Shown: one piece after another, positions 28,135 to 44,216 of the stretch
How positions within the stretch are numbered: the stretch's first letter is position 1
Layout of the letters: every line of letters starts with the position of its first letter
NCBI GenBank assembly: GCA_948469375.1
Contig: CAOKLO010000023.1
Coordinates: 1-48,512, forward strand
Reading direction: 5' to 3'
Length of the DNA: 48,512 bases
Source: an uncultured bacterium
GTDB lineage: Bacteria; Bacillota; Clostridia; Oscillospirales; Oscillospiraceae
Program-made: the position numbers and the translations under genes
The notes under the pieces: generated by a model
Database searches by the model: none
Told to the model about the DNA's origin: nothing
What the model saw: the letters and a program-made list of their open reading frames with translations, nothing else

Positions 28135-30144
28135 TCAGGCGCCCAGCTCGATCCACAGATCGTTGTACAGCCTGCGGGTTTCGGCGGGAAGCACGGTGTA
28201 CATCTCACACCGCTCCAGCACTTCGGCGGGGGCGGCCATAATCTCATACAGCTCGGGGTCCAGCTCCTCGCCGTACTCGTTCTCGTACCAATCGGGATAC
28301 TGCTCCAGCGCTTCGGCGTTGGGAGAGGCGTACCAGATATAATCCATGTTGGCCAGGTTGGAGTCGGTGGAGGCAATGAAGTTGATCCATTTCATCGCGT
28401 CCTCGTAGTGGGGGGCGTCCTTCAGCACACACATGGCGTCCACAAACCAGTTGGAGCCCTCCTTGGGAATGACATAGCGCAGATCCACGCCCTCCCCCTG
28501 ATTTTCCAGCATGGACAGGTAATCCCCGGCGTAGTAGGTGGCGATGGCGGCGTTGCCGCCCTCCATCTTCTGGAACACCTGGTCGGACACCTTGCCCTGG
28601 AACACGCCCCGGCGGCTGGCGTCGGCAATGAGCGCAAAGGCTTCACGAATCTTGGCCGGGTCGGTGGTGTTTACCGAGCAGCCGGAATAGAGCAGGGCCT
28701 CGCCCAGCGCGTCCCGGGAGTTGTTGATAAGCAGCACGTCCCCGGCGTATTTGCTGTCGTACAGAACGCCCCAGCTGTCGATCTCCTCCTCCACCATGGC
28801 AGCGTTGTAGATAATGCCCAGAGTGCCCCAGGTGTAGGGAACGGTGTACTTGTTTGACCGGTCATAGGACAGGTTTCGGAACCGCTGGTCAATGAGCTGG
28901 AAATTGGGGATTGCGTCATAGTCCAGCTCCTCCAGCATGTCCTCCTCGATGAGCTGGGCGATCATATAATCGGAGGTGACGATCACGTCGTAATCCGCGC
29001 CGCCGCTTTTCAGCAGGGAATACATGGCCTCGTTGCTCTCGGCGGTCTGGTAATTGACCCGGATGCCCGTTTCGTCCTCGAACTGGGTGATGAGGTCCTC
29101 GTCGATGTATTCGCCCAGGCTGCACACATTGACCACCGGCTGGGAATAGGCGGCCCCGGAGAGCAAAACAGTCACCACGATGAAGGCGCAGGCCATCGCC
29201 GCCGTCACGCCCCGGCGCACCCACTGGAAGGAGGGCTGATTGAAGCGCATGGACAGCTTCTCAAAGAAGGAGGGCGCCCGGACCTCCTGCCGGTCCGCCC
29301 GGCGCTCCTGGCGGACCTCCCGGACGTTGTTGAGCACCAGCAACGCCAGCACCGACAAAAACAGCAGGGTGGACACCGCGTTGACCTCCGGGGTGATGCG
29401 CTTTTTGGTCATGGAATAGATGCGCATGGCCAGGGTGGAGGTGGACGACCCGGCGGTGAAGTAGGAGATGACAAAGTCGTCGATGGACATGGTGAAGGCA
29501 ATGAGGGCCCCGGATACAATGCCCGGTTTGATTTCCGGCAGAATCACCTTCCAGAAGGCCTGCATCCAGGTGCAGCCCAGATCCTGGGCGGCGTCCACCA
29601 GATTTTTGTCCATTTGACGCAGCTTGGGGGCCACGTTTAGGATGACATAGGGGATGTTGAAGGCAATGTGGGCCAGCAGCATGGTGGTAAAGCCCAGAGT
29701 GAACCGCTCAGGCAGCTCGACGGCGCTCTGCATGCCGTTGAACCACTGGGCGAAGGCCCCCCAGCCCTGAAAAAAGGCCACAAAGAACAGGCACAGGGAT
29801 ACGCCGGTGACGATATCCGCGTTCATCATAGGGATGTCGTTGACCACCAGCAGGGCGTCCCGCTTGCGCCTGCCCAGGCTGTAAAGCCCGATGGCGGCAA
29901 AGGTGCCCGCCGCAGTGGCGATGGCGGTGGCCAGCAGGGATACCAGCAGGGTGGTGTACAGGCTTTCCATGATGAGCCGGTTTTGGAAGAGAGCCTCGTA
30001 CCATTGCAGGGAGAAGCCCTGCCACACGGCGCTGGAGTCCCCGGCGTTGAAGGAGAAAATGATGAGCAGGAAAATGGGCAGGTACAGGAACAGGAAGGTG
30101 AGGCCGATGAGCAGGCGGCTTCCAATACGGTTACCGTGCTTCAC
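28135..30144 (-). CDS. potCD: spermidine/putrescine ABC transporter, fused permease PotC and binding protein PotD
   Basis: A 669-residue fusion. Residues 1-270 are a PotC-like permease with six helices and the coupling motif DAAQDLGCTWMQAFWKVILP. A basic linker and another membrane helix (about 312-332) lead to an extracellular PotD-like binding domain starting VVNVCSLGEYIDEDL, with YDVIVTSDYMIAQL and VPYTWGTLGIIYN as family segments. The start is GTG behind AAGGGGG. The fused layout tethers the binding protein to the permease and is known in several Firmicutes. Polyamine import is inferred from the family. Confidence 0.92.
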   Translation of the reverse strand: MKHGNRIGSRLLIGLTFLFLYLPIFLLIIFSFNAGDSSAVWQGFSLQWYEALFQNRLIMESLYTTLLVSLLATAIATAAGTFAAIGLYSLGRRKRDALLVVNDIPMMNADIVTGVSLCLFFVAFFQGWGAFAQWFNGMQSAVELPERFTLGFTTMLLAHIAFNIPYVILNVAPKLRQMDKNLVDAAQDLGCTWMQAFWKVILPEIKPGIVSGALIAFTMSIDDFVISYFTAGSSTSTLAMRIYSMTKKRITPEVNAVSTLLFLSVLALLVLNNVREVRQERRADRQEVRAPSFFEKLSMRFNQPSFQWVRRGVTAAMACAFIVVTVLLSGAAYSQPVVNVCSLGEYIDEDLITQFEDETGIRVNYQTAESNEAMYSLLKSGGADYDVIVTSDYMIAQLIEEDMLEELDYDAIPNFQLIDQRFRNLSYDRSNKYTVPYTWGTLGIIYNAAMVEEEIDSWGVLYDSKYAGDVLLINNSRDALGEALLYSGCSVNTTDPAKIREAFALIADASRRGVFQGKVSDQVFQKMEGGNAAIATYYAGDYLSMLENQGEGVDLRYVIPKEGSNWFVDAMCVLKDAPHYEDAMKWINFIASTDSNLANMDYIWYASPNAEALEQYPDWYENEYGEELDPELYEIMAAPAEVLERCEMYTVLPAETRRLYNDLWIELGA

Positions 30145-30250
30145 AGCAACGACCCCCTTTCGTCACCGGGCGATAACGTGGAGGGAACGCAAGCAAAAGG
30201 AAGCGAATTAAAATTCTTTTTGCCTGCTTTTTCTCTTGAGAAAAAGGAAG

Positions 30251-31195
30251 TCATAGCATCACCGCCTGTTCTTCGCCCTCACCGAAGTGGTTCATGACCA
30301 CCATGCAGACCACAACGACCACCATCATCACCATGGAGATGGCCGCGCCCAAATGGGGGTTGTAGGCCCCGCCCAGGAACTGGGCCTCAATGAGGTCACC
30401 CAGCATCATCTGCGTGCCTCCGCCCAGCAGGTTGGAGATGGCAAAGGTGGACACGGAGGGGACAAATACCATGGTCACCCCTGACAAAATCCCCGGCAGG
30501 GACAAGGGGAAGATCACCTTGGAGAACACCCGGGCCGAATCAGCCCCCAAATCCCGGGCCGCCTCAATGAGCGAACCGTCCAGCTTGACGATGACGGAAT
30601 AGATGGGCAGGATCATAAAAGGAAGGTAGTTGTACACCATGCCCAGAACCACCGCGCCGGGGGTGCCGATCATCTGAAAGTAGCGGATGGGCTGATATAC
30701 GATGGGGATGAATTGGTCGGGGTCCTCCGCAAAGCGGATGGCAATGCTGTTGCGCAGGTCCGTAAACAGGGCGCCGGCCTGATTGTAGAGGTCGATCACC
30801 CCGATATTCTGGAACAGCTGATTCAAAAGCCCGTTGTTCTCCAGGATGGACATCCAGGAGTAGGTGCGCAGCAGGAAGTTCATCCACATGGGCAGCATAA
30901 TGAGGGCCATGGCGACACGCTGGAACCTGGGACCCTCCTTGGCCATCCAGTAGGACGCCGGATAGCCGATGAGCAGGCACACCAGCGTGGCCAGCAGGGC
31001 GAGCCAGAAGGAGCGCAGGAATACGTTCAGATAGATGCCCATCCCCGTGAAGTTGTCCGCCGTGGCGTAGGTGGCGTTGGTGACGGGATCGGCGGCGGTG
31101 AAGGCGTACACCGCCATGATGAGGATGGGGATGACCACAAACAGGGCCATCCAAATCACATAGGGAAAGGCAAACCAGGCCCGCTTATTTTTCAT
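30251..31195 (-). CDS. potB: spermidine/putrescine ABC transporter permease PotB
   Basis: A 314-residue permease with six membrane helices and the coupling motif [20 protein letters not shown]. The start at 31195 ([15 protein letters not shown]) overlaps the end of potA by 11 bases, a coupled junction; the longer frame upstream is the antisense of potA sequence. A gap of 106 bases separates it from potCD, the only loose joint in the operon. It forms the channel with the PotC half of the fusion. Confidence 0.93.
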
Positions 31196-32372
31196 AGCCG
31201 CCCTCCTGGGAGCCGCTCTCCTCTCCGTTTTCCTCCTCGGGCTCCACCACATCCAGCTCCTCGTACTCCTCGGAGTAAGAGGAGTAGTCCCCGAACATCC
31301 CGGAGTAATGGCTCTTTTTCATAACGTGGATGCCGTCCGGGTCAATTTTGATGCCGATGCGGCTGTCCACGGGGCAGAAATCGGTGGTCTGTATGAGCCA
31401 CTTAAAGCCATAGAAGTCCACGATGGTGTCGTACTGGGCTCCCTTGAAGGTGACGGCAGTGACGGTGCCTTTGAGCTGTCCCGCGGCCTCGTCCACAATG
31501 TCCACGTCCTCTGGGCGGATGACCACATCCACCGGCTCGTCCTTGTCAAAGCCCTTGTCCAGACATTGGAACCTGCGGTTGAAAATCTCCACCACTCCGT
31601 CGGTGCGCATGATGCCGTCGATGATGTTGGATTCACCGATGAAGTCCGCAACGAAGGCGTTTTTCGGCTCGTTATAAATGTCCGTGGGTGTGCCGATCTG
31701 CTGGATGCGCCCGCCGTCCATTACCACTACGGTGTCGGACATGGCCAGCGCCTCCTCCTGGTCGTGGGTCACATAGATGAAGGTGATCTCCATCTCCTGC
31801 TGAATGCGCTTCAGCTCGATCTGCATATCCTTGCGCAGACGCATGTCCAGTGCGCCCAGCGGCTCGTCCAGCAGCAGAACCTTGGGCCGGTTTACCAGGG
31901 CCCGGGCGATGGCCACCCGCTGCTGCTGCCCGCCGGACAGGGCGGACACCGGGCGTTTCTCAAAGCCCTTCAGGTTCACCACCGCCAGCATCTCCATGAC
32001 GCGCTCGTGGATCTCCTGCTCAGGAATTTTCACCTTTCGGCCCGACCCGTCCGTCTTGGGAATGCGCAGGCCGAAGGCCACGTTCTCGAACACGTTGAGG
32101 TGCGGGAACAGGGCGTAGCGCTGGAACACAGTGTTCACCGCCCGCTGGTGGGGCGGGACATCATTAATCCTCACGCCGTCAAACAAAACGTCCCCGGCGG
32201 TCGGCGACAGAAACCCGCCTATCATCCGAAGCGTGGTTGTCTTGCCGCACCCGCTGGGGCCCAGCAGCGTGAGGAATTCCTTGTCATTGATATACAGATT
32301 GATGTGGTCGAGCACGACCTCGTCGCCGTAGGACATGACGCAGTCCCGCAGGCGGATCAGCTCCTTGGACAT
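31185..32372 (-). CDS. potA: spermidine/putrescine ABC transporter ATP-binding protein PotA
   Basis: A 395-residue ATPase. Walker A is GPSGCGKTT, the Q-loop [19 protein letters not shown], signature [16 protein letters not shown], Walker [13 protein letters not shown] and switch [12 protein letters not shown]-terminal TOBE-type regulatory domain follows (about residues 240-355), then an acidic tail of about 35 residues rich in Glu, Ser and Tyr that is not part of the usual family. The RBS is GGGGGAGG. Confidence 0.95.
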
Positions 32373-33428: not shown

Positions 33429-33468
33429 AGCAGGCCCCACGCCATAGGCGCGGGGCCTGCTGTGTTTT
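33429..33468 (+). terminator. intrinsic terminator of the formyltransferase gene
   Basis: AGCAGGCCCC pairs with GGGGCCTGCT (33452-33461) with an inner GCC-ATA-GGC, followed by GTGTTTTCTC. It separates the gene from the convergent lsrK arm. Confidence 0.85.
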
Positions 33469-33469
33469 C

Positions 33470-33964
33470 TCACAGGGTGATCTGAATTTTCTGCTCCTCC
33501 GTAAAGAGAATTTTGCAGGTGTCGTTGAGATAGGTCCGCTCGGGCAGGCAGATGAGCACCGTGCCGTCGTGGTGGACGGGGAAGGGTGCGCCGTGCCACG
33601 CCCCGGCCCGGAACACGACCATGGTGCCCGCCGGGACGATGAACGCCTCCTGCTTATCAAACTCCACCTTGCCGCCGTTGGCGGGGGCGGCGGCCATAAT
33701 CATGTCGTCGTCCAGAGGCATCATCACCTCCATGGCGTAGCTGTGGTATTCCGCGTCGGCGATGACCATGTCCCGCTTGCCCACCTTCAGGCTGCCGAAG
33801 GCGGTGATAGACGGGCTGGCGTTGGGCACCAGGACCATATCACGGTGGAAGGTGCAGGGGTAGTCCCCCATGCCATAGGCCGCGCCGGGGTCGGTGATGT
33901 TGGCGATGAAGCCATAAGGGGCAAAATTTTCCGCCGTGATGGGAACGGCCTTGATGGTTTTCAT
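33470..33964 (-). CDS. ureidoglycolate lyase (AllA)-like cupin-fold protein
   Basis: A 164-residue protein resembling ureidoglycolate lyase: it starts MKTIKAVPITAENFAPYGF and has ASPSITAFGSLKVGKRD, HSYAMEVMMPLDDD, EAFIVPAGTMVVFRAGAWHG and HDGTVLICLPE. AllA releases urea from ureidoglycolate in allantoin use, but no other allantoin gene is present. It starts 12 bases after the cupin gene that follows lsrK, so it belongs to the autoinducer-2 operon. Its place there suggests a different substrate, perhaps a phospho-DPD derivative; this is an inference. The RBS is GAGGAGGG. Confidence 0.75.
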   Translation of the reverse strand: MKTIKAVPITAENFAPYGFIANITDPGAAYGMGDYPCTFHRDMVLVPNASPSITAFGSLKVGKRDMVIADAEYHSYAMEVMMPLDDDMIMAAAPANGGKVEFDKQEAFIVPAGTMVVFRAGAWHGAPFPVHHDGTVLICLPERTYLNDTCKILFTEEQKIQITL

Positions 33965-33976
33965 ATCAAGCCCTCC

Positions 33977-34327
33977 TCAGTATACCGGGTTGTCCACGTT
34001 AACCTTGTCTACCTCCTGGAAGGGGGCCAGGGTGGACACCATTTTCACCGGCTCGTCGTAGGCGTTTTTTACATAGTGGACCTCGCCGGGCTCGATGTGG
34101 ATCAAATCGCCTGTACTCAGCACGTGCTTGACACCGTCCACCACGATGTCCACCTTGCCCTCCAGGATAAAGAAATCCTCTTCCATCACGTTGTGGTAGT
34201 GGGCCTGGAAATCCTCCCCGGGGCGGAAGCGCACCAGGGCAAAGTTCATTCGGGGGCCCTTCATCAAATACTTCGGGCCGCTCTCTCCAAAGCGGTACTC
34301 CCGCTCATTCTCATTGACAATAAACAT
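33977..34327 (-). CDS. small cupin domain protein in the lsr operon
   Basis: A 116-residue single-domain cupin. Motif 1 reads FRPGEDFQAHYHNVMEEDFFILEG, carrying the two histidines and glutamate that bind metal, and motif 2 reads GDLIHIEPGEVHYVKNA. Such small cupins are often metal-dependent isomerases, dioxygenases or sugar-binding enzymes. It lies 36 bases after lsrK and 12 bases before the AllA-like gene. No LsrG homologue is encoded in this locus, so this protein is a candidate for the phospho-DPD isomerase step. The RBS is AGGAGGAG. Confidence 0.85.
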   Translation of the reverse strand: MFIVNENEREYRFGESGPKYLMKGPRMNFALVRFRPGEDFQAHYHNVMEEDFFILEGKVDIVVDGVKHVLSTGDLIHIEPGEVHYVKNAYDEPVKMVSTLAPFQEVDKVNVDNPVY

Positions 34328-34363
34328 ATTCTTCTCCTCCTATCCAAAATTGGCCGGACCCAA

Positions 34364-35926
34364 TCAGAGGCCGGGGGCGATCCACATATTCCGGGTCAGC
34401 CCCTGGTCGCACAGCGCCAGCTGGGCGGGATAAAGCTTCTTCCAGTTGGCGTACAGCTCGTCATATACCGCCTTGACGGAGGCGTTGGGCTGGAAGATCT
34501 GGTCCCATTTCACCGTCCGCTCCACAGCCTCCTCCACGCTGGCGTACAGCTTCACGCCCACGCCCGCCAGAATGGCCGCGCCCAGGGCGGTGGCCTCCTT
34601 CACCACGGGCACCTTCACCGGCTTGCCGGTGACGTCGGCCACAATCTGGCTCCACAAGGGACTCTTGGCCGCGCCGCCGGCGAAAATCAGCTCGTCGGGC
34701 TCGTGTCCGGTGGCCTCCTTGACCAGCTCGATGTGGCCCCGCACCAGCAGGGCGGTATTCTCCAGAATGGCCCGGTAGAAGGTGTATTTGTTGAACTTCT
34801 CCGGCTCCAGCAGGAAGTTGGTGAAGGTGGGGCTGGCGTGCTTCCAATTGATGAAATTCATGGTGTCGCTGAAGCAGCATTGCATCCCATAGGACCCGGC
34901 GGGGATGTCCTTTGCCTTCTCATTCATCAGGTCGTAGGTGTCCCGGCCCGTGCGTTTGGCCTCCTCTGCCTCCGCCTGACAGAAGCCGTCCCGGAACCAG
35001 CGCATCACCAGCCCGGGCTTGAAGGCCAGGGCCTCATACTGCCATAGGCCGGGCAGGGCGGCGCAGTTCACCCGCACCCGGCAGCCGGGGTCGGTTTTGC
35101 CGGAGTCGGTGTTGAACTCGTACTGCCAGAAGCTCCCGCCGAACACGGCGGCCTGATTGGCCTTGTAGGCCCCCACGCCCAGCGTGCCCAGCTGGCAGTC
35201 ACCGCCGCCCACCACAACGGGGGTGCCCTCCAACAGCCCGGTGTCCGCGGCGCCCTTGGCGCTCACCTTGGCGAAATTGGCGCCGCACTCCACCACAGGT
35301 GGGAAGATGTCCGCCCGCAGGCCGCACTTCTCCGCAATCTCCGGCAGCCAGTCCCGGCTTTGCAGGTCCATAATGCCGGTGGTGCTGCCGTTGCTGGGCT
35401 CCACCGCCAGCCTGCCGGTGAGCTTGTAGATCAGCCAGTCGTTGAACATGCCCAGGTTGGCGGTCTTTTCGTAGACCTCGGGCAGGTTGTCCCGCACCCA
35501 TAAAATCCGAGGCAGGGCCCCCAGGGCATAGGTCTGGCCGGACTTTAAGTACACTTCCTTTTCCAGCGCCGGGTCCAGCTCCTTGAGCTGGCCCACCTGG
35601 GCGTCGCTGCGGGCGTCCACATTGGCGCAGGCCCAAATTTCATTCCCGTCCTTGTCGTAAAGCAGGATGCCCTCCCGCATACAGGTGGTGGACACGGCGG
35701 CGATATCGGTGGGGGCAATGCCCGTCTCCTCCAGCACGCCCTTGACGCAGCCCCGGGCGAGCTCCCAGTTGTGCACCCAGTCGAAGTCCATGCTGCCCGG
35801 CCAGCGCGGGTCCTCCCGGTGGGACCACTCCTGCTGGACGCAGCCCACCTGTTCGCCGTCCAGGGAAAAGACCACGGCCCGGACGCTGCCGGTGCCCGCG
35901 TCCACTGCCATCAGGTATTTCGCCAT
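34364..35926 (-). CDS. lsrK: autoinducer-2 kinase LsrK
   Basis: A 520-residue FGGY-family kinase that phosphorylates imported DPD/AI-2, trapping it and creating the inducer for LsrR. It begins MAKYLMAVDAGTGSVRAVVF and shows the LsrK-specific stretches STTCMREGILLYDKDGNEIW, CANVDARSDAQVGQLKEL, VEPSNGSTTGIMDLQSRDW, VVGGGDCQLGTLGVGAYK and VPVVKEATALGAAILAGVG. The C-terminus GLTRNMWIAPGL parallels that of enterobacterial LsrK. The ribosome site is AGGAGG. It lies 55 bases after lsrR on the same strand, so lsrR-lsrK-cupin-AllA-like form one operon divergent from lsrACDBF. Confidence 0.95.
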   Translation of the reverse strand: MAKYLMAVDAGTGSVRAVVFSLDGEQVGCVQQEWSHREDPRWPGSMDFDWVHNWELARGCVKGVLEETGIAPTDIAAVSTTCMREGILLYDKDGNEIWACANVDARSDAQVGQLKELDPALEKEVYLKSGQTYALGALPRILWVRDNLPEVYEKTANLGMFNDWLIYKLTGRLAVEPSNGSTTGIMDLQSRDWLPEIAEKCGLRADIFPPVVECGANFAKVSAKGAADTGLLEGTPVVVGGGDCQLGTLGVGAYKANQAAVFGGSFWQYEFNTDSGKTDPGCRVRVNCAALPGLWQYEALAFKPGLVMRWFRDGFCQAEAEEAKRTGRDTYDLMNEKAKDIPAGSYGMQCCFSDTMNFINWKHASPTFTNFLLEPEKFNKYTFYRAILENTALLVRGHIELVKEATGHEPDELIFAGGAAKSPLWSQIVADVTGKPVKVPVVKEATALGAAILAGVGVKLYASVEEAVERTVKWDQIFQPNASVKAVYDELYANWKKLYPAQLALCDQGLTRNMWIAPGL

Positions 35927-35981
35927 GGGATTACCTCCTATTTAATAAATGTATGTTGTTTCGTACGCGTTGGAAAACTGA

Positions 35982-36932
35982 TTAGGAATCGGACGCCTCC
36001 AGCAGCAGCTGGGCGGTGTCATCGTCGGTGATGAGCACGTCCAGGTAGCCCCCCCGGAGGACGGCTAGGATGGCTTCCGCCTTGTCCGGCCCGCCCGCCG
36101 CGCCGATGACGTTGTCCAGCGTTCTGAGCTGGTCCATGGAGGTGCTCATGAGCCGCCCCTCCATGTCATGGGAGACCACGTTCCCGTTTTTGTCCAGGAA
36201 GTGACTGAGCACATCGCCCACCGCTCCCTGCATTTTCAGGAAGGTGAAGTCGTTATTGTTGAGAATGCCGTTTTTTACGATGGTGGCCCGGTCGTTCATG
36301 GAGCCGATGCCCACCACGCTCATGCTGGACAGGGGGATCATGCGGAAGATCTCCTCCACATCCGGCTCCCGCCGCAGAGCGTCCCGCACGTCCGCGCTGG
36401 ACAGCAGCAGGGGAGAGGGGATCAGGTACAGCTTGGCGTTGAACACGCTGGAGATGGCGTTGGGCAAGTAATAATTCACGCCCCCCGCCAAGCTCACCAC
36501 ATTCAGCGGAAGCTGCGCCGCCGTGGCCAGGTGGTTGAGAATGCGGCTGGTGGTGTCGCCATAGCCCATGTTGATGAAAGCGCCGTCCGCCGCCCGGCGC
36601 AGTATGTACATGGCGGCGGCCTGGGCGATGCTCTCGTTGGGGCTGGATAGGGTGGCCGCCCCGGGGACGATGAAGGCGTCCCGCAGGCCGAAGCGGCCCA
36701 GCAGTTCCCGCTCCAGCTCCATACGGCGGCTGCTGTCCTGCTGGACGTTGAACTGGATGACCCCCGCCTGGCGGGCCCGCTCCAGCAGGGCGATGACCTT
36801 GGAACGGCTGACGCCCAGAAGGTGGGAGATGCTCTGCTGGGTATAGTTCTCTATATAATAGTACCATACCGCCTTGACCATCAGCCGGTGCTCGTAGTCG
36901 GCCTTGTTGAGCCTGTCTATTTTTTCATCCAT
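35982..36932 (-). CDS. lsrR: LsrR-like SorC/DeoR-type repressor of the lsr genes
   Basis: A 316-residue regulator with an N-terminal helix-turn-helix (YTQQSISHLLGVSRSKVIAL) and a C-terminal sugar-phosphate-binding SorC domain (SLAGGVNYYLPNA, VVGIGSMNDRATI, VIGAAGGPDKAEAI). LsrR releases DNA on binding phospho-AI-2 made by LsrK. The start at 36932 was chosen because GGAG precedes it and it gives the usual LsrR length; an ATG 13 codons earlier has weak support. It is divergent from lsrA and should control both arms from the region between them. Confidence 0.88.
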   Translation of the reverse strand: MDEKIDRLNKADYEHRLMVKAVWYYYIENYTQQSISHLLGVSRSKVIALLERARQAGVIQFNVQQDSSRRMELERELLGRFGLRDAFIVPGAATLSSPNESIAQAAAMYILRRAADGAFINMGYGDTTSRILNHLATAAQLPLNVVSLAGGVNYYLPNAISSVFNAKLYLIPSPLLLSSADVRDALRREPDVEEIFRMIPLSSMSVVGIGSMNDRATIVKNGILNNNDFTFLKMQGAVGDVLSHFLDKNGNVVSHDMEGRLMSTSMDQLRTLDNVIGAAGGPDKAEAILAVLRGGYLDVLITDDDTAQLLLEASDS

Positions 36933-36993
36933 TTCCAATACCGCTCCAAAATCCGACAAAAGTTTTAACATCCGGCAAATGTCTTATGTCAAT

Positions 36994-37023
36994 AGTATAG
37001 CACCTGCCCTTGGCTGCTGTCAA
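36994..37023 (-). promoter_or_regulatory. promoter of the lsrR-lsrK operon
   Basis: On the minus strand TTGACA (37018-37023), 18-base spacer, TATACT (36994-36999). Its -35 element touches the 9-bp dyad at 37022-37049, so a repressor bound there would block it. Confidence 0.75.
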
Positions 37024-37070
37024 ATGAAAGCGAAAAAAATCTTTCATTTTCTGTAAAATCGTTGAAAGCG
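37022..37070. promoter_or_regulatory. candidate LsrR operator cluster
   Basis: AAATGAAAG (37022-37030) pairs perfectly with CTTTCATTT (37041-37049). A third half-site TTGAAAGCG follows at 37062-37070, and GAAAGCG occurs twice, 38 bases apart. The cluster lies between the divergent lsr promoters. The rest of the 350-base region up to lsrA shows no gene. Confidence 0.55.
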
Positions 37071-37189
37071 CTAAAAATCGAGTATAGTTATTGTGCATAA
37101 CTGACAAAAAAGCGCATTTTTTGACGGAGAGAGAAGGATTTATTGCCGAAAATGGCCAAAAAATTCATGCCGGAAAGGTTTCATCGATA

Positions 37190-37218
37190 TTGACAAACGC
37201 AAGAAAAAACCTTATGAT
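37190..37218 (+). promoter_or_regulatory. strong promoter of lsrACDBF
   Basis: TTGACA (37190-37195), 17 bases, TATGAT (37213-37218), with the start point about 60 bases before the lsrA ATG. A weaker possible promoter (TTGAAA at 37062 with TATAGT at 37083) lies inside the operator cluster. Confidence 0.82.
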
Positions 37219-37286
37219 AAAGCAAACAGCAAAAAGTGATTTCTCGGGACATTTGTGCATTGCCGCACAGGAATGGGAGAGCTGCA

Positions 37287-38819
37287 ATGGAAGCGAAGGA
37301 AACCACAGGGAAAACCGCCCCCCTGTTGAGCGTGCGGGGCATCTATAAGGCCTTTGGCCTCAACGCCGTGCTCAAAGGCATCGATATGGACGTCATGCCG
37401 GGAGAGGTGCTTGCCCTCATCGGCGGCAACGGCGCGGGCAAGTCCACCTTAATGAAAATCATCATGGGCATTTACAGCAGCGACCAGGGAGAGTTGGCAA
37501 TGAACGGTCGGACGGTGGCGCTGAACCGGCCTTCCGACGCCCTGGCCCAGGGCATCTACATGGTGCCCCAGGAGCCGCTGCTCTTCCCCAACATGACGGT
37601 GGAGGAGAACATTACCATCGGCTTTGACAAGAGCAAGGCGGAGCTGCATAAGGAACTGGTTGACACCATGGCGGACATCGGCTGGAACCTGGATCTGGGC
37701 CGGAAGGCCGGCAGCCTGTCCATCGCTGAGCAGCAGCTGGTGGAGATTTTGCGGGGCATCCTGCGCCACGCCCGCCTGCTGATTCTGGACGAACCCACCT
37801 CCGCCCTCACCTTCGACGAGGTGAAGAGCCTGTTCAAGGTGGTGCGGGATCTGCGGGAGAAGGGCATCGGCATCATTTACATCACCCACCGCCTGGCGGA
37901 GGTGTTCGACATCTCCACCCATGTGGCCATCATGCGGGACGGCATGATTACCGTTCAGGGCCCGGTGGAGAACTTCACCCGGGAGGACCTGGTAAAGGGC
38001 CTGCTGCCCCCCGACGCGGAGGACGGCGCTCAGAGCCGGACGGCGGGGATCTCCAAGGTGGACTACTCGGCCAGGCCGGTGCTGGAGCTGGAAAACTTCA
38101 GCGGCTACGGCTTCTCCAATGTGAGCCTGAAGGTCTGGCCCGGTGAGATTCTGGGCGTGGCCGGCGTGGTGGGCGCGGGCCGCAGCGAGATGGCCACCAC
38201 CATTTTCGGCATGGACAAGGTGCTGGGCGGCCGGGTGCTCCTGAATGGGAATGATATCACCGGCAAAAAGACCCGGCAGGTCATCGCGGCGGGCCTGAAC
38301 TATGTGCCGGAGGACCGGCACCTCAACGGCCTGTTCAAGATCTGCGACGTGGCCGCCAACACCACCAGCGCCAGCCTGTTCGGCGGGGCGTTGGGCAAGG
38401 TGTTCCTCAACCGGAAGGCGGAATACGACATCACCGAGAAGTATGTGAAGAATTTCCGCACCAAAATTACTGGGCACGACCAGCTGACAGGCAGCCTGTC
38501 CGGCGGCAACCAGCAGAAGATTGTCATCGGCCGCTCTCTGGCCACCGACCCGGGCATCGTCATTTTGGACGAACCCACCCGCGGCATTGACGCCGCCGCC
38601 CGCGGCGATGTGTACAGCATCATCCACCAGCTGCGGGAGCAGGGGCTGTCCATCCTGCTCATCTCCAGCGACATGGAGGAGCTGGAGGAGCTGGCCGACC
38701 GGGTGGTGGCTATGTATCAGGGCCGCATCAACGGGTCGTTCCAGGGGGCGGACATCAACCAGGATAATCTCACGGCCGCCGCCTTCGGCATCGTGGAACA
38801 GGAGGCGAAGGAAGCATGA
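37287..38819 (+). CDS. lsrA: AI-2 import ATP-binding protein LsrA
   Basis: A 510-residue protein with two ABC domains, as in LsrA/RbsA. Domain 1 has Walker A GGNGAGKST, signature SLSIAEQQLVEILRGIL and Walker B LLILDEPTSAL. Domain 2 has the degenerate Walker A GVVGAGRSE and intact SLSGGNQQKIVIGRSLA and VILDEPTRGID. The start at 37287 (MEAKETTGK) follows GGGAGAG and gives the same length as enterobacterial LsrA. It overlaps lsrC by four bases. Assignment to AI-2 rather than ribose rests on the lsrB, lsrF, lsrK and lsrR neighbours. Confidence 0.92.
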   Translation: MEAKETTGKTAPLLSVRGIYKAFGLNAVLKGIDMDVMPGEVLALIGGNGAGKSTLMKIIMGIYSSDQGELAMNGRTVALNRPSDALAQGIYMVPQEPLLFPNMTVEENITIGFDKSKAELHKELVDTMADIGWNLDLGRKAGSLSIAEQQLVEILRGILRHARLLILDEPTSALTFDEVKSLFKVVRDLREKGIGIIYITHRLAEVFDISTHVAIMRDGMITVQGPVENFTREDLVKGLLPPDAEDGAQSRTAGISKVDYSARPVLELENFSGYGFSNVSLKVWPGEILGVAGVVGAGRSEMATTIFGMDKVLGGRVLLNGNDITGKKTRQVIAAGLNYVPEDRHLNGLFKICDVAANTTSASLFGGALGKVFLNRKAEYDITEKYVKNFRTKITGHDQLTGSLSGGNQQKIVIGRSLATDPGIVILDEPTRGIDAAARGDVYSIIHQLREQGLSILLISSDMEELEELADRVVAMYQGRINGSFQGADINQDNLTAAAFGIVEQEAKEA

Positions 38820-39832
38820 GCGCGGTAAAAAAATTCGTGAAGGCCCGGGAGTTCACCAGCTTCCTGTTCCTGGTGGCCCTGTTCCTCATTGTGGGCGTTA
38901 TCAACCCGTCCTTTTTAACCCTGCCCAACATCAGCGCGTGCTTTAACTCCTCAGTGGTGTACACCCTCATCGCTGTGGGCATGGCTTTCGCCATCTTCAT
39001 CGGTGAGATCGACGTGTCGGTGGGCTCCACCATGGGTCTGTCCGCCGCCGTGGTGGGCACCATGATTCAAAACGGCTCCAACTGGTTCCTGGCCTTTCTC
39101 GCCGGCGTTCTCATCGGCGTTGTGGTGGGCCTGATTAACGGCTGGGGCGTGGCGGTCATGAAGATTCCCTCTCTGATTTTCACGCTGGGCACCAACGGCA
39201 TTCTTCGGGGCCTGATGTACTTACAGGTGGGCGCGGAGCAGGTCAACAGCCTGCCCAAGGAGTTCAAGGACATTTCCTCCATGACCCTCGTCGGCAGCTT
39301 TACCGTCTACTACTGCTGCGCTGTGGTGCTGACCGTCGCCATTCACCTCCTGCTCACCCGCACCAAGCGGGGGCGCTACTTCATCGCTGTGGGCGACAAC
39401 GCCGGCGGCGCGGAGCTGGTGGGCATCCCTGCCACCCGCACCAAGGTGACGGCTTATCTGATCTGCGGCGTGCTCAGCGCCGTGTCGGGCATTATTTTCG
39501 CCAGCCGTATCGGCATCGTCACCTCTCTGAGCGGCAACGGCTATGAGATGAAGGCCGTGGCGGCCTGCGTGCTGGGCGGCATCAGCCTGTCCGGCGGCGT
39601 GGGCTCGGTAATCGGCGCGGGCATCGGCGCAGTCATCATGGCCTCTATCAGCTATCTGCTGGTGTTCATGGGCACCTCCTCCAACTACGACAACGCCATC
39701 ACCGGCGTGATTCTCATCACCATCGTGGTGGTGGACGCGCTGATGCAGCACAGGGCTGCGGTGAATAACCGCCACGCCCGTCTGGCCGCCCGCACCTCGG
39801 CGGCCCCTGGTGGAAAGGAGGAGCGGCAATGA
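38816..39832 (+). CDS. lsrC: AI-2 import permease LsrC
   Basis: A 338-residue permease of the ribose/AI-2 family with about nine helices. Family features are FAIFIGEIDVSVGSTMGLSA, PSLIFTLGTNGILRGLMYL and ACVLGGISLSGGVGSVIGA. Stop and start codons overlap with lsrA and lsrD (ATGA junctions), so the three are translationally coupled. It forms a heterodimeric channel with LsrD. Confidence 0.92.
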   Translation: MSAVKKFVKAREFTSFLFLVALFLIVGVINPSFLTLPNISACFNSSVVYTLIAVGMAFAIFIGEIDVSVGSTMGLSAAVVGTMIQNGSNWFLAFLAGVLIGVVVGLINGWGVAVMKIPSLIFTLGTNGILRGLMYLQVGAEQVNSLPKEFKDISSMTLVGSFTVYYCCAVVLTVAIHLLLTRTKRGRYFIAVGDNAGGAELVGIPATRTKVTAYLICGVLSAVSGIIFASRIGIVTSLSGNGYEMKAVAACVLGGISLSGGVGSVIGAGIGAVIMASISYLLVFMGTSSNYDNAITGVILITIVVVDALMQHRAAVNNRHARLAARTSAAPGGKEERQ

Positions 39833-40896
39833 GCGAACCCACAGTCAAGCTGGGCGGTCAGAACGGTTTGCGTCGTCTGTGGAACGGCCCCAATTTCCGC
39901 TGGAACCTGTTCCTGCTGGTGCTGCTGATTGGGGAGTGCGCGGTGTTCGGCGCGGCAAATCCCAAGTTTTTGTCCTTGAGCCGCATTTTCACCTCCGCCA
40001 ACAGCGACCTGCCCATCTGGTACATCTCTATCTTTGTCACCTTTGTTATGATTACCGGCGGCATCGACATCCAGTCCTGCGCCATCGTGGGCCTCACCTC
40101 CATTATCATCGGTGTGGCCTGGCAGGATTTCGGCTTGAACATCTGGGCGGCGTCGCTGCTGGCCGTGGTGGTGGCCGTGGCCTGCGGAGCCCTCAGCGGC
40201 TTCTTTGTGGCCTACTGCGGCGTTCAGGCCATGGTGGTCACCCTGGGTGGCAGCTTCCTCTATTCGGGCCTGGGACTGCTGGTGACCACGCTGTCCAGCA
40301 CGGAGGCGTATAAGGGCATCAGCGGCTTCCCCGACAGCTTCAAGGCGCTGACCAAAACCAAGCTGTTTGATTTGGTGCCCCTCCCGATTATCATTTTCCT
40401 TATCATGTTGCTGGCGGCGTACCTGTTGCTCCACCGGAGCAAATACGGCCGGAAGGTTTTCCTGGTGGGCGTCAACCCGGCGGCGGCGGAGTACTCCGGC
40501 GTGAACAGCCGCTGGATCAGCATGTCCACCTATATGCTCACCGGTCTGGCGGCGGGCATCACCGGCGTGGTCATGACCTCTCAGCTGGGCACCGCCAAGT
40601 CCGATTTGGGCGGTAGCTTCACCATGACCATCATCACTGCCTGCGTGCTGGGCGGTACCCTGTCCACCGGCGGCAAGGGCAGCGCCCTAGGCACCGCGCT
40701 GGCGGCCATCGCCATTACCCTGATGCGGTTTGGTATGCCCCTGTGCTTCGGCATCAACAAGCAGTATCTGGACATCCCCATCGGCGTGCTGCTGGTGGTC
40801 GTGGTGGTGGGCCGTGCCATTGTCAGCAATCCTACCGTTATCGCCTGGGTGGGCAGGCTGCGCGGCAAGGGGAAGGAATCCAAGGCCGGCGCATAG
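39829..40896 (+). CDS. lsrD: AI-2 import permease LsrD
   Basis: A 355-residue permease related to LsrC. It shows VMITGGIDIQSCAIVGLTSI, AMVVTLGGSFLYSGLGLLVT and ACVLGGTLSTGGKGSALGTA, the last being the coupling-region pattern of ribose-type permeases. AGGAGC precedes its ATG inside the end of lsrC. A 60-base spacer with an imperfect hairpin separates it from lsrB. Confidence 0.92.
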   Translation: MSEPTVKLGGQNGLRRLWNGPNFRWNLFLLVLLIGECAVFGAANPKFLSLSRIFTSANSDLPIWYISIFVTFVMITGGIDIQSCAIVGLTSIIIGVAWQDFGLNIWAASLLAVVVAVACGALSGFFVAYCGVQAMVVTLGGSFLYSGLGLLVTTLSSTEAYKGISGFPDSFKALTKTKLFDLVPLPIIIFLIMLLAAYLLLHRSKYGRKVFLVGVNPAAAEYSGVNSRWISMSTYMLTGLAAGITGVVMTSQLGTAKSDLGGSFTMTIITACVLGGTLSTGGKGSALGTALAAIAITLMRFGMPLCFGINKQYLDIPIGVLLVVVVVGRAIVSNPTVIAWVGRLRGKGKESKAGA

Positions 40897-40902
40897 TCAA
40901 GG

Positions 40903-40933
40903 TATATTCCGGGACGTTTTGTCCCTGAATATA
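40903..40933 (+). promoter_or_regulatory. hairpin in the lsrD-lsrB spacer
   Basis: TATATTC-C-GGGAC pairs with GTCCC-T-GAATATA around a GTTTT loop (one mismatch). No T-run follows, so it probably acts as an RNA-stabilising or processing structure that favours lsrB expression over the permease genes. GGAGG and the ATG follow closely. Confidence 0.5.
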
Positions 40934-40956
40934 AAATATCTATGGAGGTATGAAAA

Positions 40957-42126
40957 ATGAAACTGAAAAGACTTGCAGCATTGCTTCTGGCTCTGAGCAT
41001 GATGTTTGCTCTGGCCGCCTGTGGCGGCGACACTCCGCCTGCGGATTCTCAGCCCGCCGAAAGCCAGTCCGACGGTCAGGAGAGCACGACTCCCGAGGAC
41101 AACACCCCTGAGCCCGCCGACGAGAACAAGTCCGCCGTTGAGGGCATGACCGTGGCTTACATCCCCAAGCTGACCGGCAACGCCTTCTTTGAGGCCGCCA
41201 ACGTCGGCGCTCAGAAGTATGCCGCCGAGTGGGGCATGACCGTGGACTACATGGGCGATCCCAACGCCACTGCCGCCGCTCAGGTCGCCGTCATCAATGA
41301 CGCCGTGGCCAAGGGCGTGGACGCCATCTGCATCTCCGCCGTGGACGCCGCCGGCGTGTCCGACGCGCTGAAGGAGGCCGCCGCCGCTGGCATCGTCATC
41401 TCCACCTGGGACTCCGACGCCAATCCCGAGGACCGCTCCCTCATCGTCTCCCAGGGCACTCCCGAGGTGCTGGGCCAGATGCTGGTGGATATGTCCGTGG
41501 CCGGCCTGAAGGACCGCGGCGTTGACCCCGACAACGACGCCGTGAAGTATGCCTGGCACTACTCCCAGGCCACTGTGACCGACCAGAACTCCTGGCAGGT
41601 CGCCGCTGAGGCCATCATCAAGGACAAGTACCCCAACTGGGAGAACGTTCACCCCGACAACTACTACTCCGAGCAGGACGCTGAGAAGTCCGTCACCATC
41701 GGCGAGGCCGTGCTGGCCGACACCCCCGACATCGACCTGATCATCTGCAACGACTCCACCGCTCTGCCCGGCCAGCTCCAGGCCGCCGAGAACAAGGGCC
41801 TGACCAAGGACGACGTGACCATCACCGGTTTTGCCACCCCCAACGCCATCAAGGAGTACTGCAACAACGGCACCCTGTACAACTGGGGCCTGTGGGACTG
41901 CGGCATCCAGGGCGCTATGGCCTGCTACGTGTCCGCTTACATCGCCGCCGGTAACGACGTGAAGGTGGGCGACGTCATCGACATCCCCGGCATCGGCAAG
42001 TGCGAGGTCCTGCCCAACGACAGCATCGCTGAGGGCGCTGCTACCGCCGACGTGAACAACGGCGTGGTTCTGCTCCCCGAGGACGTGATCTTCACCTCCG
42101 AGAACATGAACGACTACGACTTCTAA
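40957..42126 (+). CDS. lsrB: AI-2 binding lipoprotein LsrB
   Basis: A 389-residue substrate-binding lipoprotein. The lipobox LAAC places the lipid on Cys22, followed by an acidic Ser/Pro-rich linker (25-60). The binding domain matches LsrB: VAYIPKLTGNAFFEAA, STWDSDANPEDRS, SQGTPEVLGQMLVDMS, SQATVTDQNSWQ, GFATPNAIKEY and the C-terminus VVLLPEDVIFTSENMNDYDF. Of six known AI-2 contacts in Salmonella LsrB, four are kept (Lys71, Asp152, Asp209, Gln210) and two differ: Asn265 for Pro220 and Ser267 for Ala222. Codon use is strongly biased, which suggests high expression. Confidence 0.93.
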   Translation: MKLKRLAALLLALSMMFALAACGGDTPPADSQPAESQSDGQESTTPEDNTPEPADENKSAVEGMTVAYIPKLTGNAFFEAANVGAQKYAAEWGMTVDYMGDPNATAAAQVAVINDAVAKGVDAICISAVDAAGVSDALKEAAAAGIVISTWDSDANPEDRSLIVSQGTPEVLGQMLVDMSVAGLKDRGVDPDNDAVKYAWHYSQATVTDQNSWQVAAEAIIKDKYPNWENVHPDNYYSEQDAEKSVTIGEAVLADTPDIDLIICNDSTALPGQLQAAENKGLTKDDVTITGFATPNAIKEYCNNGTLYNWGLWDCGIQGAMACYVSAYIAAGNDVKVGDVIDIPGIGKCEVLPNDSIAEGAATADVNNGVVLLPEDVIFTSENMNDYDF

Positions 42127-42174
42127 TCGAGGTCACCATGTCCTGAAACAGGTCCGCAGGGGCCTGTGACGGGT

Positions 42175-42244
42175 GGAGCGGGGCTTTTGCAGCCCCGCTC
42201 CGCTCCCAAAAGAGCGCCGCTTGCCGGCGCTTTTTTGGGAGCGG
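42175..42244 (+). terminator. terminator and nested hairpins between lsrB and lsrF
   Basis: Hairpin 1 is GGAGCGGGGCT / AGCCCCGCTCC (42175-42201). Hairpin 2 is AGCGCCG / CGGCGCT (42213-42231) followed by TTTTT, an intrinsic terminator; it is itself enclosed by CCGCTCCC (42200-42207) pairing with GGGAGCGG (42237-42244). Partial read-through would make lsrF less abundant than lsrB. Confidence 0.75.
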
Positions 42245-42295
42245 AGGAGCGTTTCCTTCGCCGCTGATATTTACCAACACAAGGAGGATATATTT

Positions 42296-43177
42296 ATGGC
42301 TGATTTGGAAGGTCTGAAGGTCTCCAAGGACTATCACGTGGAGGTCCCCTTCGCCAATCAGAAGGGCTTCTATCTTAAGGGTATCAACAGTCTGGACTGG
42401 GGCATGAAAAAGCACATGTCTAACATTTTCAACCCAGAGAGCGGCAACACCGTCATGTTTGCCTTTGACCACGGCTATTTTATGGGCTCCACCGCCGGTC
42501 TGGAGCGTCTGGACCTGCTGCTGCCCCAGCTGGCCCCCTATGTGGACTGCTTTATGGGCACCCGGGGCGCGCTGCGCACCTGCGTTCCCCCTGAGGCGGT
42601 GAAGAGCGTGGCCCTGCGGGTCACCTCCGGCTCCTCTATGCTCCAGGACGATATGAGCCACGAGGTGGTGGCGGTGAACATTGAGGACGCCATCCGCATG
42701 AACGCCGACTGCATGGCGGTGCAGACCTTTATCGGTGCCGACGGCCAGCTGTCCAGCCTGGACAACCTGAATCAGGTCATCAATTCGGGTATGCGCTATT
42801 CCATCCCCACCATGGGCGTGTGCGCCGTGGGCAAGGACATGGCCCGCACCGGCCGGTTCTTCAAGCTGGCCACCCGCATCATCGCCGAGATGGGCGTGCA
42901 GGTGGTCAAGACCTACGACTGCGAGGACTTCGAGGAGGTCGTGGCGGCCTGCCCGGTGCCCATCGTGGTGGCGGGCGGCAAGAAGCTGTCCGAGCCGGAC
43001 GCGCTGAAGCTGGCCTACGGCGTGATGCAGAAGGGCGCCCACGGCGTGGACATGGGCCGGAACATCTTCCAGAGTACTCACCCCGTGGCGATGGCCCAGG
43101 CGGTGTCCATGATTGTCCACAAGGGAGCCACCGACAAGGAGGCCCTGGAGTTCTTCGAGGACCAGTGCCACAAGTAA
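42296..43177 (+). CDS. lsrF: 3-hydroxy-5-phosphonooxypentane-2,4-dione thiolase LsrF
   Basis: A 293-residue class I aldolase-fold enzyme that cleaves the isomerised phospho-AI-2, transferring an acetyl group to CoA and giving dihydroxyacetone phosphate. Family marks are FNPESGNTVMFAFDHGYFMG, CFMGTRGALRTCVPPE, MGVCAVGKDMARTGRFFKLA, the lysine in VQVVKTYDCEDFEE and VPIVVAGGKKLSEPDAL, ending VDMGRNIFQSTHPVAM. The start follows AAGGAGGA. Its substrate requires an isomerase (LsrG in enterobacteria) that is not encoded beside it. Confidence 0.94.
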   Translation: MADLEGLKVSKDYHVEVPFANQKGFYLKGINSLDWGMKKHMSNIFNPESGNTVMFAFDHGYFMGSTAGLERLDLLLPQLAPYVDCFMGTRGALRTCVPPEAVKSVALRVTSGSSMLQDDMSHEVVAVNIEDAIRMNADCMAVQTFIGADGQLSSLDNLNQVINSGMRYSIPTMGVCAVGKDMARTGRFFKLATRIIAEMGVQVVKTYDCEDFEEVVAACPVPIVVAGGKKLSEPDALKLAYGVMQKGAHGVDMGRNIFQSTHPVAMAQAVSMIVHKGATDKEALEFFEDQCHK

Positions 43178-43289: not shown

Positions 43290-44216
43290 ATGGTTTTACA
43301 AGTAATCCAAATGGTGCTGCCCATTGTGATCATGCTGGGGCTGGGCATGCTGTGTCGCCGGAAGAATATTTTCGATATGAACGGTCTGGCGGGACTGAAG
43401 GCGGTGGTGGGGGATATCTGCCTGCCGGTGGTGCTGTTCAACGCCTTTTTCACCGCCAAGTATTCCCTGGCTGTGGCGCTGATCTTTGTGCTGGTGTACG
43501 CCGGATTTGGTCTGGCTCTGGCGGCAGGTTTCGGCCTGCGGAAGCTGGCCGCGCCCCATGGGAAGTTTTTCCCCTTTCTGCTGGCCAGCGCCGAGGGCGG
43601 TATGCTGGGCTACGCGCTGTACGGTGTGCTCATGGGGGAGCAGTCCGGCTTTGCCGCCGTGGACCTGGGACAGACGGTGTTTGCCTATACGGCGTTTTTG
43701 GGCCTCCTTTCACTGACCGATGGAGGCAAGCCCACGGTGGGCGGTCTGGTGAAGAACATGGTCACCAATAAATCCTGTATCGGCATGGCTCTGGGTATTT
43801 TGCTGGGCGTGCTGGGCGTGGGCCAGTGGGTGCTGTCCAGCCCCGCTTCCGGGGTGGTGACCGGGATTATTTCTATGATTACTGCGCCCACCAGCGCTCT
43901 GGTGCTGGTGGTGGTGGGCTATGAGCTGGACCTGGACAAGTCTTTGCTGCGCCCGGTGGCGGTGACGGTGGTATGCCGTCTGGTCATCATGGCGTTGCTG
44001 CTGGCGGTGGTGAGCTTCATTCTGTTTCAGCTGGTGCCCTACGACAAGGGGCTGCAAATCGCGCTGATGATCCTCTACGCCCTGCCTGCGCCTTTCATCA
44101 TCCCCTTGTTCGCCGACGTGGGGGAGGAGGGCAAATATATTTCCACCAGTTTGTCCGTTCATACGTTGTGTACCATCCTGCTGTTTGTGGCCATCGCGGC
44201 GTTCAGCCTGAGATAA
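43290..44216 (+). CDS. AEC family transporter (auxin efflux carrier-like)
   Basis: A 308-residue membrane protein with about ten helices arranged as two halves, typical of the AEC/BART permeases. Features are VLPIVIMLGLGMLCRRKNIFD at the start, LVVVGYELDLDKSLLRPV at the beginning of the second half, and ILYALPAPFIIPLFAD, a common AEC motif. Bacterial members carry malate, other organic acids or amino acid derivatives; the substrate here is unknown. The ribosome site is GGAGGAG. It has its own promoter and need not be tied to the lsr genes. Confidence 0.85.
   Translation: MVLQVIQMVLPIVIMLGLGMLCRRKNIFDMNGLAGLKAVVGDICLPVVLFNAFFTAKYSLAVALIFVLVYAGFGLALAAGFGLRKLAAPHGKFFPFLLASAEGGMLGYALYGVLMGEQSGFAAVDLGQTVFAYTAFLGLLSLTDGGKPTVGGLVKNMVTNKSCIGMALGILLGVLGVGQWVLSSPASGVVTGIISMITAPTSALVLVVVGYELDLDKSLLRPVAVTVVCRLVIMALLLAVVSFILFQLVPYDKGLQIALMILYALPAPFIIPLFADVGEEGKYISTSLSVHTLCTILLFVAIAAFSLR

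Follow-up and report, generated by a model that had tools for sequence, protein, structure and literature searches.

A small cupin encoded behind lsrK as a proposed non-homologous counterpart of LsrG in autoinducer-2 loci of Clostridia and other bacteria

The Lsr locus for autoinducer-2 (AI-2) in an uncultured member of the Oscillospiraceae (contig CAOKLO010000023.1 of assembly GCA_948469375.1; the whole stretch analysed, 48,512 nt, is referred to as the window) contains, directly 3' of the kinase gene lsrK (34364-35926, minus strand), a gene for a small cupin of 116 amino acids (33977-34327, minus strand). Judged from gene context and sequence, this lsr-type cupin is probably a metal-dependent phospho-DPD isomerase and a non-homologous counterpart of LsrG. 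To our knowledge, LsrG is the sole enzyme known for this isomerisation step; in work attributed to Marques (2011 and 2014), it is said to turn phospho-DPD into 3-hydroxy-5-phosphonooxypentane-2,4-dione, which LsrF then cleaves with coenzyme A (CoA), and the NCBIfam family names agree with these LsrG and LsrF reactions. The proposal builds on the observed gene set, the adjacency and co-occurrence of the kinase and cupin genes, the absence of an LsrG match and the conservation of cupin residues. The first-pass annotation had suggested that two cupin-fold proteins encoded behind lsrK could replace LsrG or process AI-2 differently; gene context and co-occurrence support a replacement by the small cupin, but not by the second, AllA-like protein discussed below.

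Related loci were collected by scanning genome contigs with an alignment of the LsrK proteins of the window, of a second genome (G168) and of Escherichia coli. The scan returned 345 stretches with 283 relatives, of which the best 80 were taken; 64 of these 80, the window and the G168 locus (L032) make up 66 loci on the window's LsrK side, each cut at 10 kb on either side and some of them short. They come from Clostridia, Atopobiaceae, Treponema, another member of the Spirochaetaceae, one Leptolinea metagenome-assembled genome, and others. In 63 of the 66 loci, lsrK is followed on its own strand by a cupin gene at a distance of 17 to 445 nt, and the three loci without one are contig ends (L053 stops 52 nt past the lsrK match, and L066 and L096 stop inside lsrK). 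A search of the same loci with E. coli LsrG at E ≤ 1e-4 found no match in any of the 66, with lsrF visible in 58; all 16 enterobacterial loci that were retrieved encode LsrG and none the cupin. The first-pass annotation had proposed counting cupin against lsrG in lsrK-lsrF loci of Oscillospiraceae and other Clostridia, and had named a lack of co-occurrence between the cupins and lsr genes in relatives as the result that would speak against its idea; the cupin does co-occur with them.

The remaining lsr genes are distributed over these loci as follows: lsrK 66, lsrR 61, lsrA 60, lsrC 58, lsrD 57, lsrB 56. Another conserved gene was considered as the LsrG substitute and rejected: beyond the lsr genes, the most widely shared family is an AEC permease (28 loci), and no other occurs in more than 6. 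The figures for the permease and for these other families come from a cleaned repeat of the clustering; the first round, which gave the counts for lsrR, lsrA, lsrC and lsrD, was clouded by frame-shadow open reading frames, with lsrB absent from the clusters listed. Several reduced loci retain the kinase together with a small protein. Two (L045 and L080) keep lsrF, lsrK and the cupin, with no importer or lsrR in view, and a Deinococcus plasmid stretch has lsrK and the cupin alone; one (L113) keeps lsrF, lsrG and lsrK, and three others (L104, L107 and L108) keep lsrG and lsrK. In Thalassospira and Ensifer, an LsrG-like protein is encoded directly behind lsrK, with scores of 121 and 104 bits that fall short of the LsrG cut-off (135). 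What recurs is the kinase paired with a small protein of one or the other of two unrelated kinds, the pattern expected of a kinase-isomerase unit. Two alphaproteobacterial lsr loci (L136 and L137) have a class II aldolase gene in the place of lsrF, and an LsrG-like gene behind lsrK.

The first-pass annotation saw no lsrG in the window and regarded a homologue elsewhere in the genome as a point against replacement; the LsrG model NF007791 has no match anywhere in the window's own genome at E ≤ 0.001. The E. coli K-12 LsrG protein (191.8 bits) served as the working positive control for this model, since the E. coli control genome gave no NF007791 match. As the genome is 91.6% complete (6.24% contamination), this absence is not proof. 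One other protein with the antibiotic-monooxygenase (ABM) fold is encoded in the genome (C3:103535, 46 bits to PF03992), and at E ≤ 0.1 the LsrG model does not hit it. LsrG exceeds its cut-off in none of the 50 genomes covering 50 of 65 cupin loci; 47 of them have no match to the model at E ≤ 0.001, and the best matches in the other three are weak (43.7, 26.9, and 23.3 bits vs. a cut-off of 135). Conversely, a search of 16 LsrG-locus genomes with the cupin profile at E ≤ 1e-4 gave weak matches in four (best 31.5 bits), where lsr-type cupins score over 200 bits.

Kinase and cupin also coincide at the level of whole genomes. Among 320 genomes of the window's family, including its own, LsrK is present in nine and the cupin in the same nine, which represent 6 of 106 genera; by their listed positions the two genes are adjacent in all nine, and in four of these genera at least one further listed genome lacks both genes. 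The chance figure for this coincidence, 1.2e-17, ignores kinship and is not to be taken at face value. In samples of the class, again including the window's own genome, LsrK exceeds its cut-off in 2 of 291 genomes, the same two in which the cupin scores over 200 bits (2 of 391). Isomerisation might alternatively proceed spontaneously or fall to an enzyme encoded elsewhere in the genome, for instance the ABM-fold protein C3:103535, leaving the cupin as a passenger or a sensor of phospho-AI-2. The presence of that protein in the genome and the weak LsrG-model matches in 3 of the 50 related genomes are compatible with such a scheme, but neither the protein itself nor the other 47 genomes match the model at the limits given above, and a passenger would not be expected to track LsrK across the 320 family genomes, so we regard this explanation as improbable.

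A further sample of 197 Enterobacterales genomes was centred on Morganella genome G441, in which LsrK had been found beforehand. With limits of E ≤ 1e-140 for LsrK, E ≤ 1e-25 for LsrG, and E ≤ 1e-10 for the cupin, we found LsrK in 14, LsrG in 13 and the cupin in two; all 13 genomes with LsrG have LsrK, and the 183 genomes without LsrK have neither LsrG nor the cupin at these limits. One of the two cupin genomes (G575) encodes LsrK and a cupin scoring 206 bits in a complete lsr locus of the same type as the window's, with no LsrG at E ≤ 1e-25; contamination seems unlikely here because the neighbours of the locus look Gram-negative. The other (G634) encodes LsrK, LsrG and an 88-bit cupin.

The small cupin passes the Pfam family Cupin_2 (70 bits, cut-off 27.2) and scores under every NCBIfam cut-off listed for it. 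It matches only cupin models and not the LsrG model NF007791, the single model hit by E. coli LsrG. Its closest sequence matches in the PDB are the quercetin dioxygenase YxaG and Cupin_2 proteins, among them one labelled mannose-6-phosphate isomerase, and none of these points to AI-2. Metal-dependent small cupins carry the motif HxH(x)4E ... H, and the window cupin has it as H43, H45, E50, and H84. This presumed metal set is present in every paralogue compared and in each of the 65 lsr cupins whose loci lack LsrG (those of the 63 loci described above, one from Lacticaseibacillus paracasei and that of G575). R12, K19, R26, E49, H77, N88, S98, and L100 are likewise invariant in these 65 cupins, and position 23 is K in 63 and R in two. 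Among paralogues encoded away from lsr loci, the three nearest show T, K, or N in place of R26 but retain E49. E49 was considered as a marker of AI-2 specificity, a role that is weakened by its presence in these paralogues; on the alignments, R26 is the best marker of the LsrG-less cupin set and a candidate phosphate-binding residue. Distances between cupins correlate with those between Lsr proteins (Spearman 0.41-0.68) no more strongly than other Lsr pairs do with one another (0.50-0.79), and this correlation was not used as evidence.

Substrate, reaction, metal and residue roles are what we infer from these patterns, as follows. AI-2 would be imported by LsrACDB and phosphorylated by LsrK to phospho-DPD. 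The cupin would hold a divalent metal via H43, H45, E50, and H84 and bind phospho-DPD at this metal through the neighbouring oxygens of the substrate, with the phosphate held by R26 and perhaps also by K19 and K23. The C3 carbonyl and the C4 hydroxyl could then be exchanged via a metal-bound enediolate, with E49 as a candidate base, to yield 3-hydroxy-5-phosphonooxypentane-2,4-dione for cleavage by LsrF with CoA. Shifts of a carbonyl between neighbouring carbons via an enediol are carried out by known metal cupins, namely the cupin-type phosphoglucose isomerase and lyxose isomerase.

Several observations weigh against the proposed isomerase role. The 80 loci taken from the scan are those nearest to the window. 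Relatives of the cupin, at 95-130 bits, sit outside lsr loci in four Clostridia genomes (L126, L127, L128, and L129), which indicates that the subfamily is wider than AI-2, and since the non-lsr paralogues compared keep E49, this candidate base is not specific to AI-2. Furthermore, the cupin and LsrG are found together in two cases, a Salmonella record (L132), in which lsrK is followed by the cupin and lsrF and lsrG are also present, and the Enterobacterales genome G634 (L145). A strict mutual exclusion of the two proteins is accordingly rejected, and because both cases have the cupin as well as LsrG, the cupin may do a different job. Close to the cupin gene of L129, a few kb away, lies a 110-aa frame matching LsrK with 42% identity over 89 residues.

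Such a different job could be another step of the AI-2 pathway, e.g. opening, dehydrating or epimerising AI-2 or phospho-AI-2, with the LsrG step taking place elsewhere or spontaneously. The retention of a cupin behind lsrK beside LsrG in Salmonella and G634 fits this alternative, as does the grouping of STM4071, a hypothetical protein among the genes changed in a fabR mutant, with lsr genes in a table of PMC4804515. STM4071 is presumably the Salmonella cupin, because its number adjoins that of lsrK (STM4072) in S. Typhimurium; the gene is also named in PMC11000858. However, at R26, E49, H77, S98, and L100, all invariant in the LsrG-less loci, the Salmonella cupin has G, C, Q, F, and K and the G634 cupin has E, S, V, F, and K, and the lack of an above-threshold LsrG in all 50 cupin-locus genomes also argues against this alternative, which we consider unlikely. 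At the same positions, the Deinococcus cupin has R, E, R, F, and K, and its counterpart of K19 is G.

The Salmonella cupin (L132:9989-10339, presumably STM4071) is 42% identical to that of the window and shares its slot behind lsrK and the presumed metal set, but differs in standing beside LsrG and in having G for R26 and C for E49. It is one of seven cupin records in the plasmid collection (four Salmonella, of which this one was viewed, two L. paracasei, and one Deinococcus). In the Salmonella 'plasmid' record (NZ_CP051374.1), tpiA, pfkA, and fieF adjoin the lsr genes, which suggests chromosomal sequence filed as a plasmid. A complete lsr locus of the cupin type, with rbsD after it, lies on an L. 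paracasei plasmid typed as conjugative (L133, NZ_CP064315.1).

A quick tree of LsrK (94 rows, root unsure) confines LsrG to a proteobacterial group, inside which the Salmonella L132 and G634 rows fall. Cupin rows make up a Clostridia-Spirochaetota-Atopobiaceae group, and those of L. paracasei and Deinococcus fall elsewhere in the tree; these two and the outgroup are on long branches, for which the program warns of false joins. With the contig-end loci L053 and L096 entered as cupin and Thalassospira and Ensifer as LsrG, the labels require at least three changes. As they sit on few LsrK branches, the split between Clostridia and Enterobacterales reflects few independent events, and the G575 locus, whose LsrK falls in the cupin group, was probably gained whole and is no independent swap; both points weigh against the proposal. 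On this tree, the direction of replacement, cupin for LsrG, may be reversed. It is possible, if somewhat less than probable, that the first phospho-AI-2 isomerase was the lsr cupin, a metal enzyme coupled to LsrK across several phyla of anaerobes; LsrG would then be a later substitute found mainly in Proteobacteria, and the Salmonella cupin a drifted relic of the earlier arrangement.

The second protein proposed by the first-pass annotation is an AllA-like protein with the ureidoglycolate-lyase fold (164 aa; 33470-33964, minus strand), encoded by the last gene of the lsrR-lsrK-cupin unit. Like the ureidoglycolate lyase AllA, it belongs to Pfam PF04115 (Ureidogly_lyase, 36.6 bits, cut-off 23), but it remains far under the cut-offs of the NCBIfam AllA models (35, 29.2, 28.7, and 27.7 bits vs. 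160, 260, 230, and 212), and a search of PDB sequences gave no match at E ≤ 0.01. Alone or together with the cupin, this protein could be the substitute for LsrG: its gene lies on the cupin strand, 12 nt further downstream, and is followed by a 15-pair terminator-like stem (33429-33461, minus strand), and its copies in seven other loci, 62-93% identical to that of the window, are each found behind the cupin. Still, it is present in only 8 of the 63 cupin loci and was not found in the other 55, one of which (L038) has no room for it behind the cupin. It was therefore rejected as a general LsrG substitute, and any such role is very improbable; on its distribution, the gene is best described as an optional accessory addition.

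As recognised in the first-pass annotation, LsrK and LsrF are encoded in the window, together with probable LsrR, LsrA, LsrC, LsrD, and LsrB. The locus is divergent, with lsrACDBF on the plus strand (37287-43177) and lsrR, lsrK, the cupin and the AllA-like gene on the minus strand (36971 down to 33470); the cupin gene lies 36 nt behind lsrK. LsrK (NF008187, 738.7 bits, cut-off 528; 562.8 bits to the autoinducer-2 kinase of PDB 5ya0) and the thiolase LsrF (42296-43177, plus strand; NF006081, 393.8 bits, cut-off 297) pass their NCBIfam cut-offs. The corresponding lsr model is the best match, in each case under its cut-off, of the importer ATPase LsrA (37287-38819; 542.3 bits, cut-off 586), the permeases LsrC (38816-39832; 251.6 bits, cut-off 388) and LsrD (39829-40896; 227.9 bits, cut-off 500), and the putative AI-2-binding protein LsrB (40957-42126; 312.9 bits, cut-off 384), all on the plus strand, and of the LsrR-type regulator (35982-36971, minus strand; 196.6 bits, cut-off 486). 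LsrB additionally matches PDB 6dsp ('Autoinducer 2-binding protein LsrB') with 501.9 bits, and the residues that we take to face AI-2 are mostly retained in the LsrB alignment. K203 of E. coli LsrF, presumably the catalytic lysine, is also K in the window protein. The open reading frames of lsrA and lsrF open at 37236 and 42173, and their likely true starts are 37287 and 42296.

The divergent control region between lsrR and lsrA (36994-37218) contains two promoter-like sites, 37023-36994 on the minus and 37190-37218 on the plus strand, each matching the consensus at 11 of 12 positions; they are weak evidence, as two were found against 1.3 expected in shuffles. The terminator-like stem behind the AllA-like gene is the longest of 10 such sites in the stretch (3.8 expected in shuffles) and likely ends the lsrR-lsrK-cupin-AllA-like unit. 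Behind lsrF lies the gene of an AEC-family permease (43290-44216, plus strand; Pfam Mem_trans, 33.4 bits, cut-off 25.7), a possible accessory that might transport AI-2 or a product of its degradation. Of the 34 loci with a relative, 30 have it in the same orientation as lsrF and no more than 173 nt away; relatives behind lsrF include three in Treponema at 27-29% identity. Beside the lsr locus, the stretch 28135-32372 reads as a set of ABC transporter genes of the spermidine/putrescine type, in which permease and binding protein are fused. A defence role was rejected, as no PADLOC match was found.

Compared with the Lsr system of E. coli K-12 (L033), the window shares LsrK, LsrF, the probable LsrR and LsrACDB, and the divergent layout, but differs in that its genome gives no match for LsrG or luxS, a cupin gene follows lsrK, and an AEC permease gene follows lsrF. 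The G168 locus shares lsrRK-cupin and lsrACDB with the window, and its cupin is 62% identical; the AllA-like gene was not found there, and its lsrF frame (L032:17072-17956) is broken by one in-frame stop, with both halves matching LsrF. By eye, the LsrB sequence of G168 corresponds to the chain in PDB 6dsp, taken here to be from C. saccharobutylicum. The cupin shares its proposed place in the pathway with LsrG, and the LsrG-like proteins of Thalassospira and Ensifer occupy the same slot behind lsrK.

In the open literature that was searched, we found no paper joining lsrG or autoinducer-2 kinase with a cupin, although a mention in key AI-2 papers is possible. PMC7828210 describes as undetermined what becomes of AI-2 in several members of Clostridium that lack LsrF homologues, and a search for Lsr systems marks, in a figure legend, the lsrG end for B. 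cereus and R. sphaeroides (PMC3420918). According to PMC12503165, 66 gut species, mostly Clostridia, have AI-2 receptor genes but no luxS. As luxS has no match in the window's own genome, to which this search was limited, the organism would be importing AI-2 that others produce. For many of the AI-2 importers found in anaerobes the locus lacks LsrG; the cupin is now a named candidate for its step, with marker residues, and lsrK followed by the cupin offers a simple genome marker by which Clostridia, Atopobiaceae, and Treponema that consume AI-2 may be recognised.

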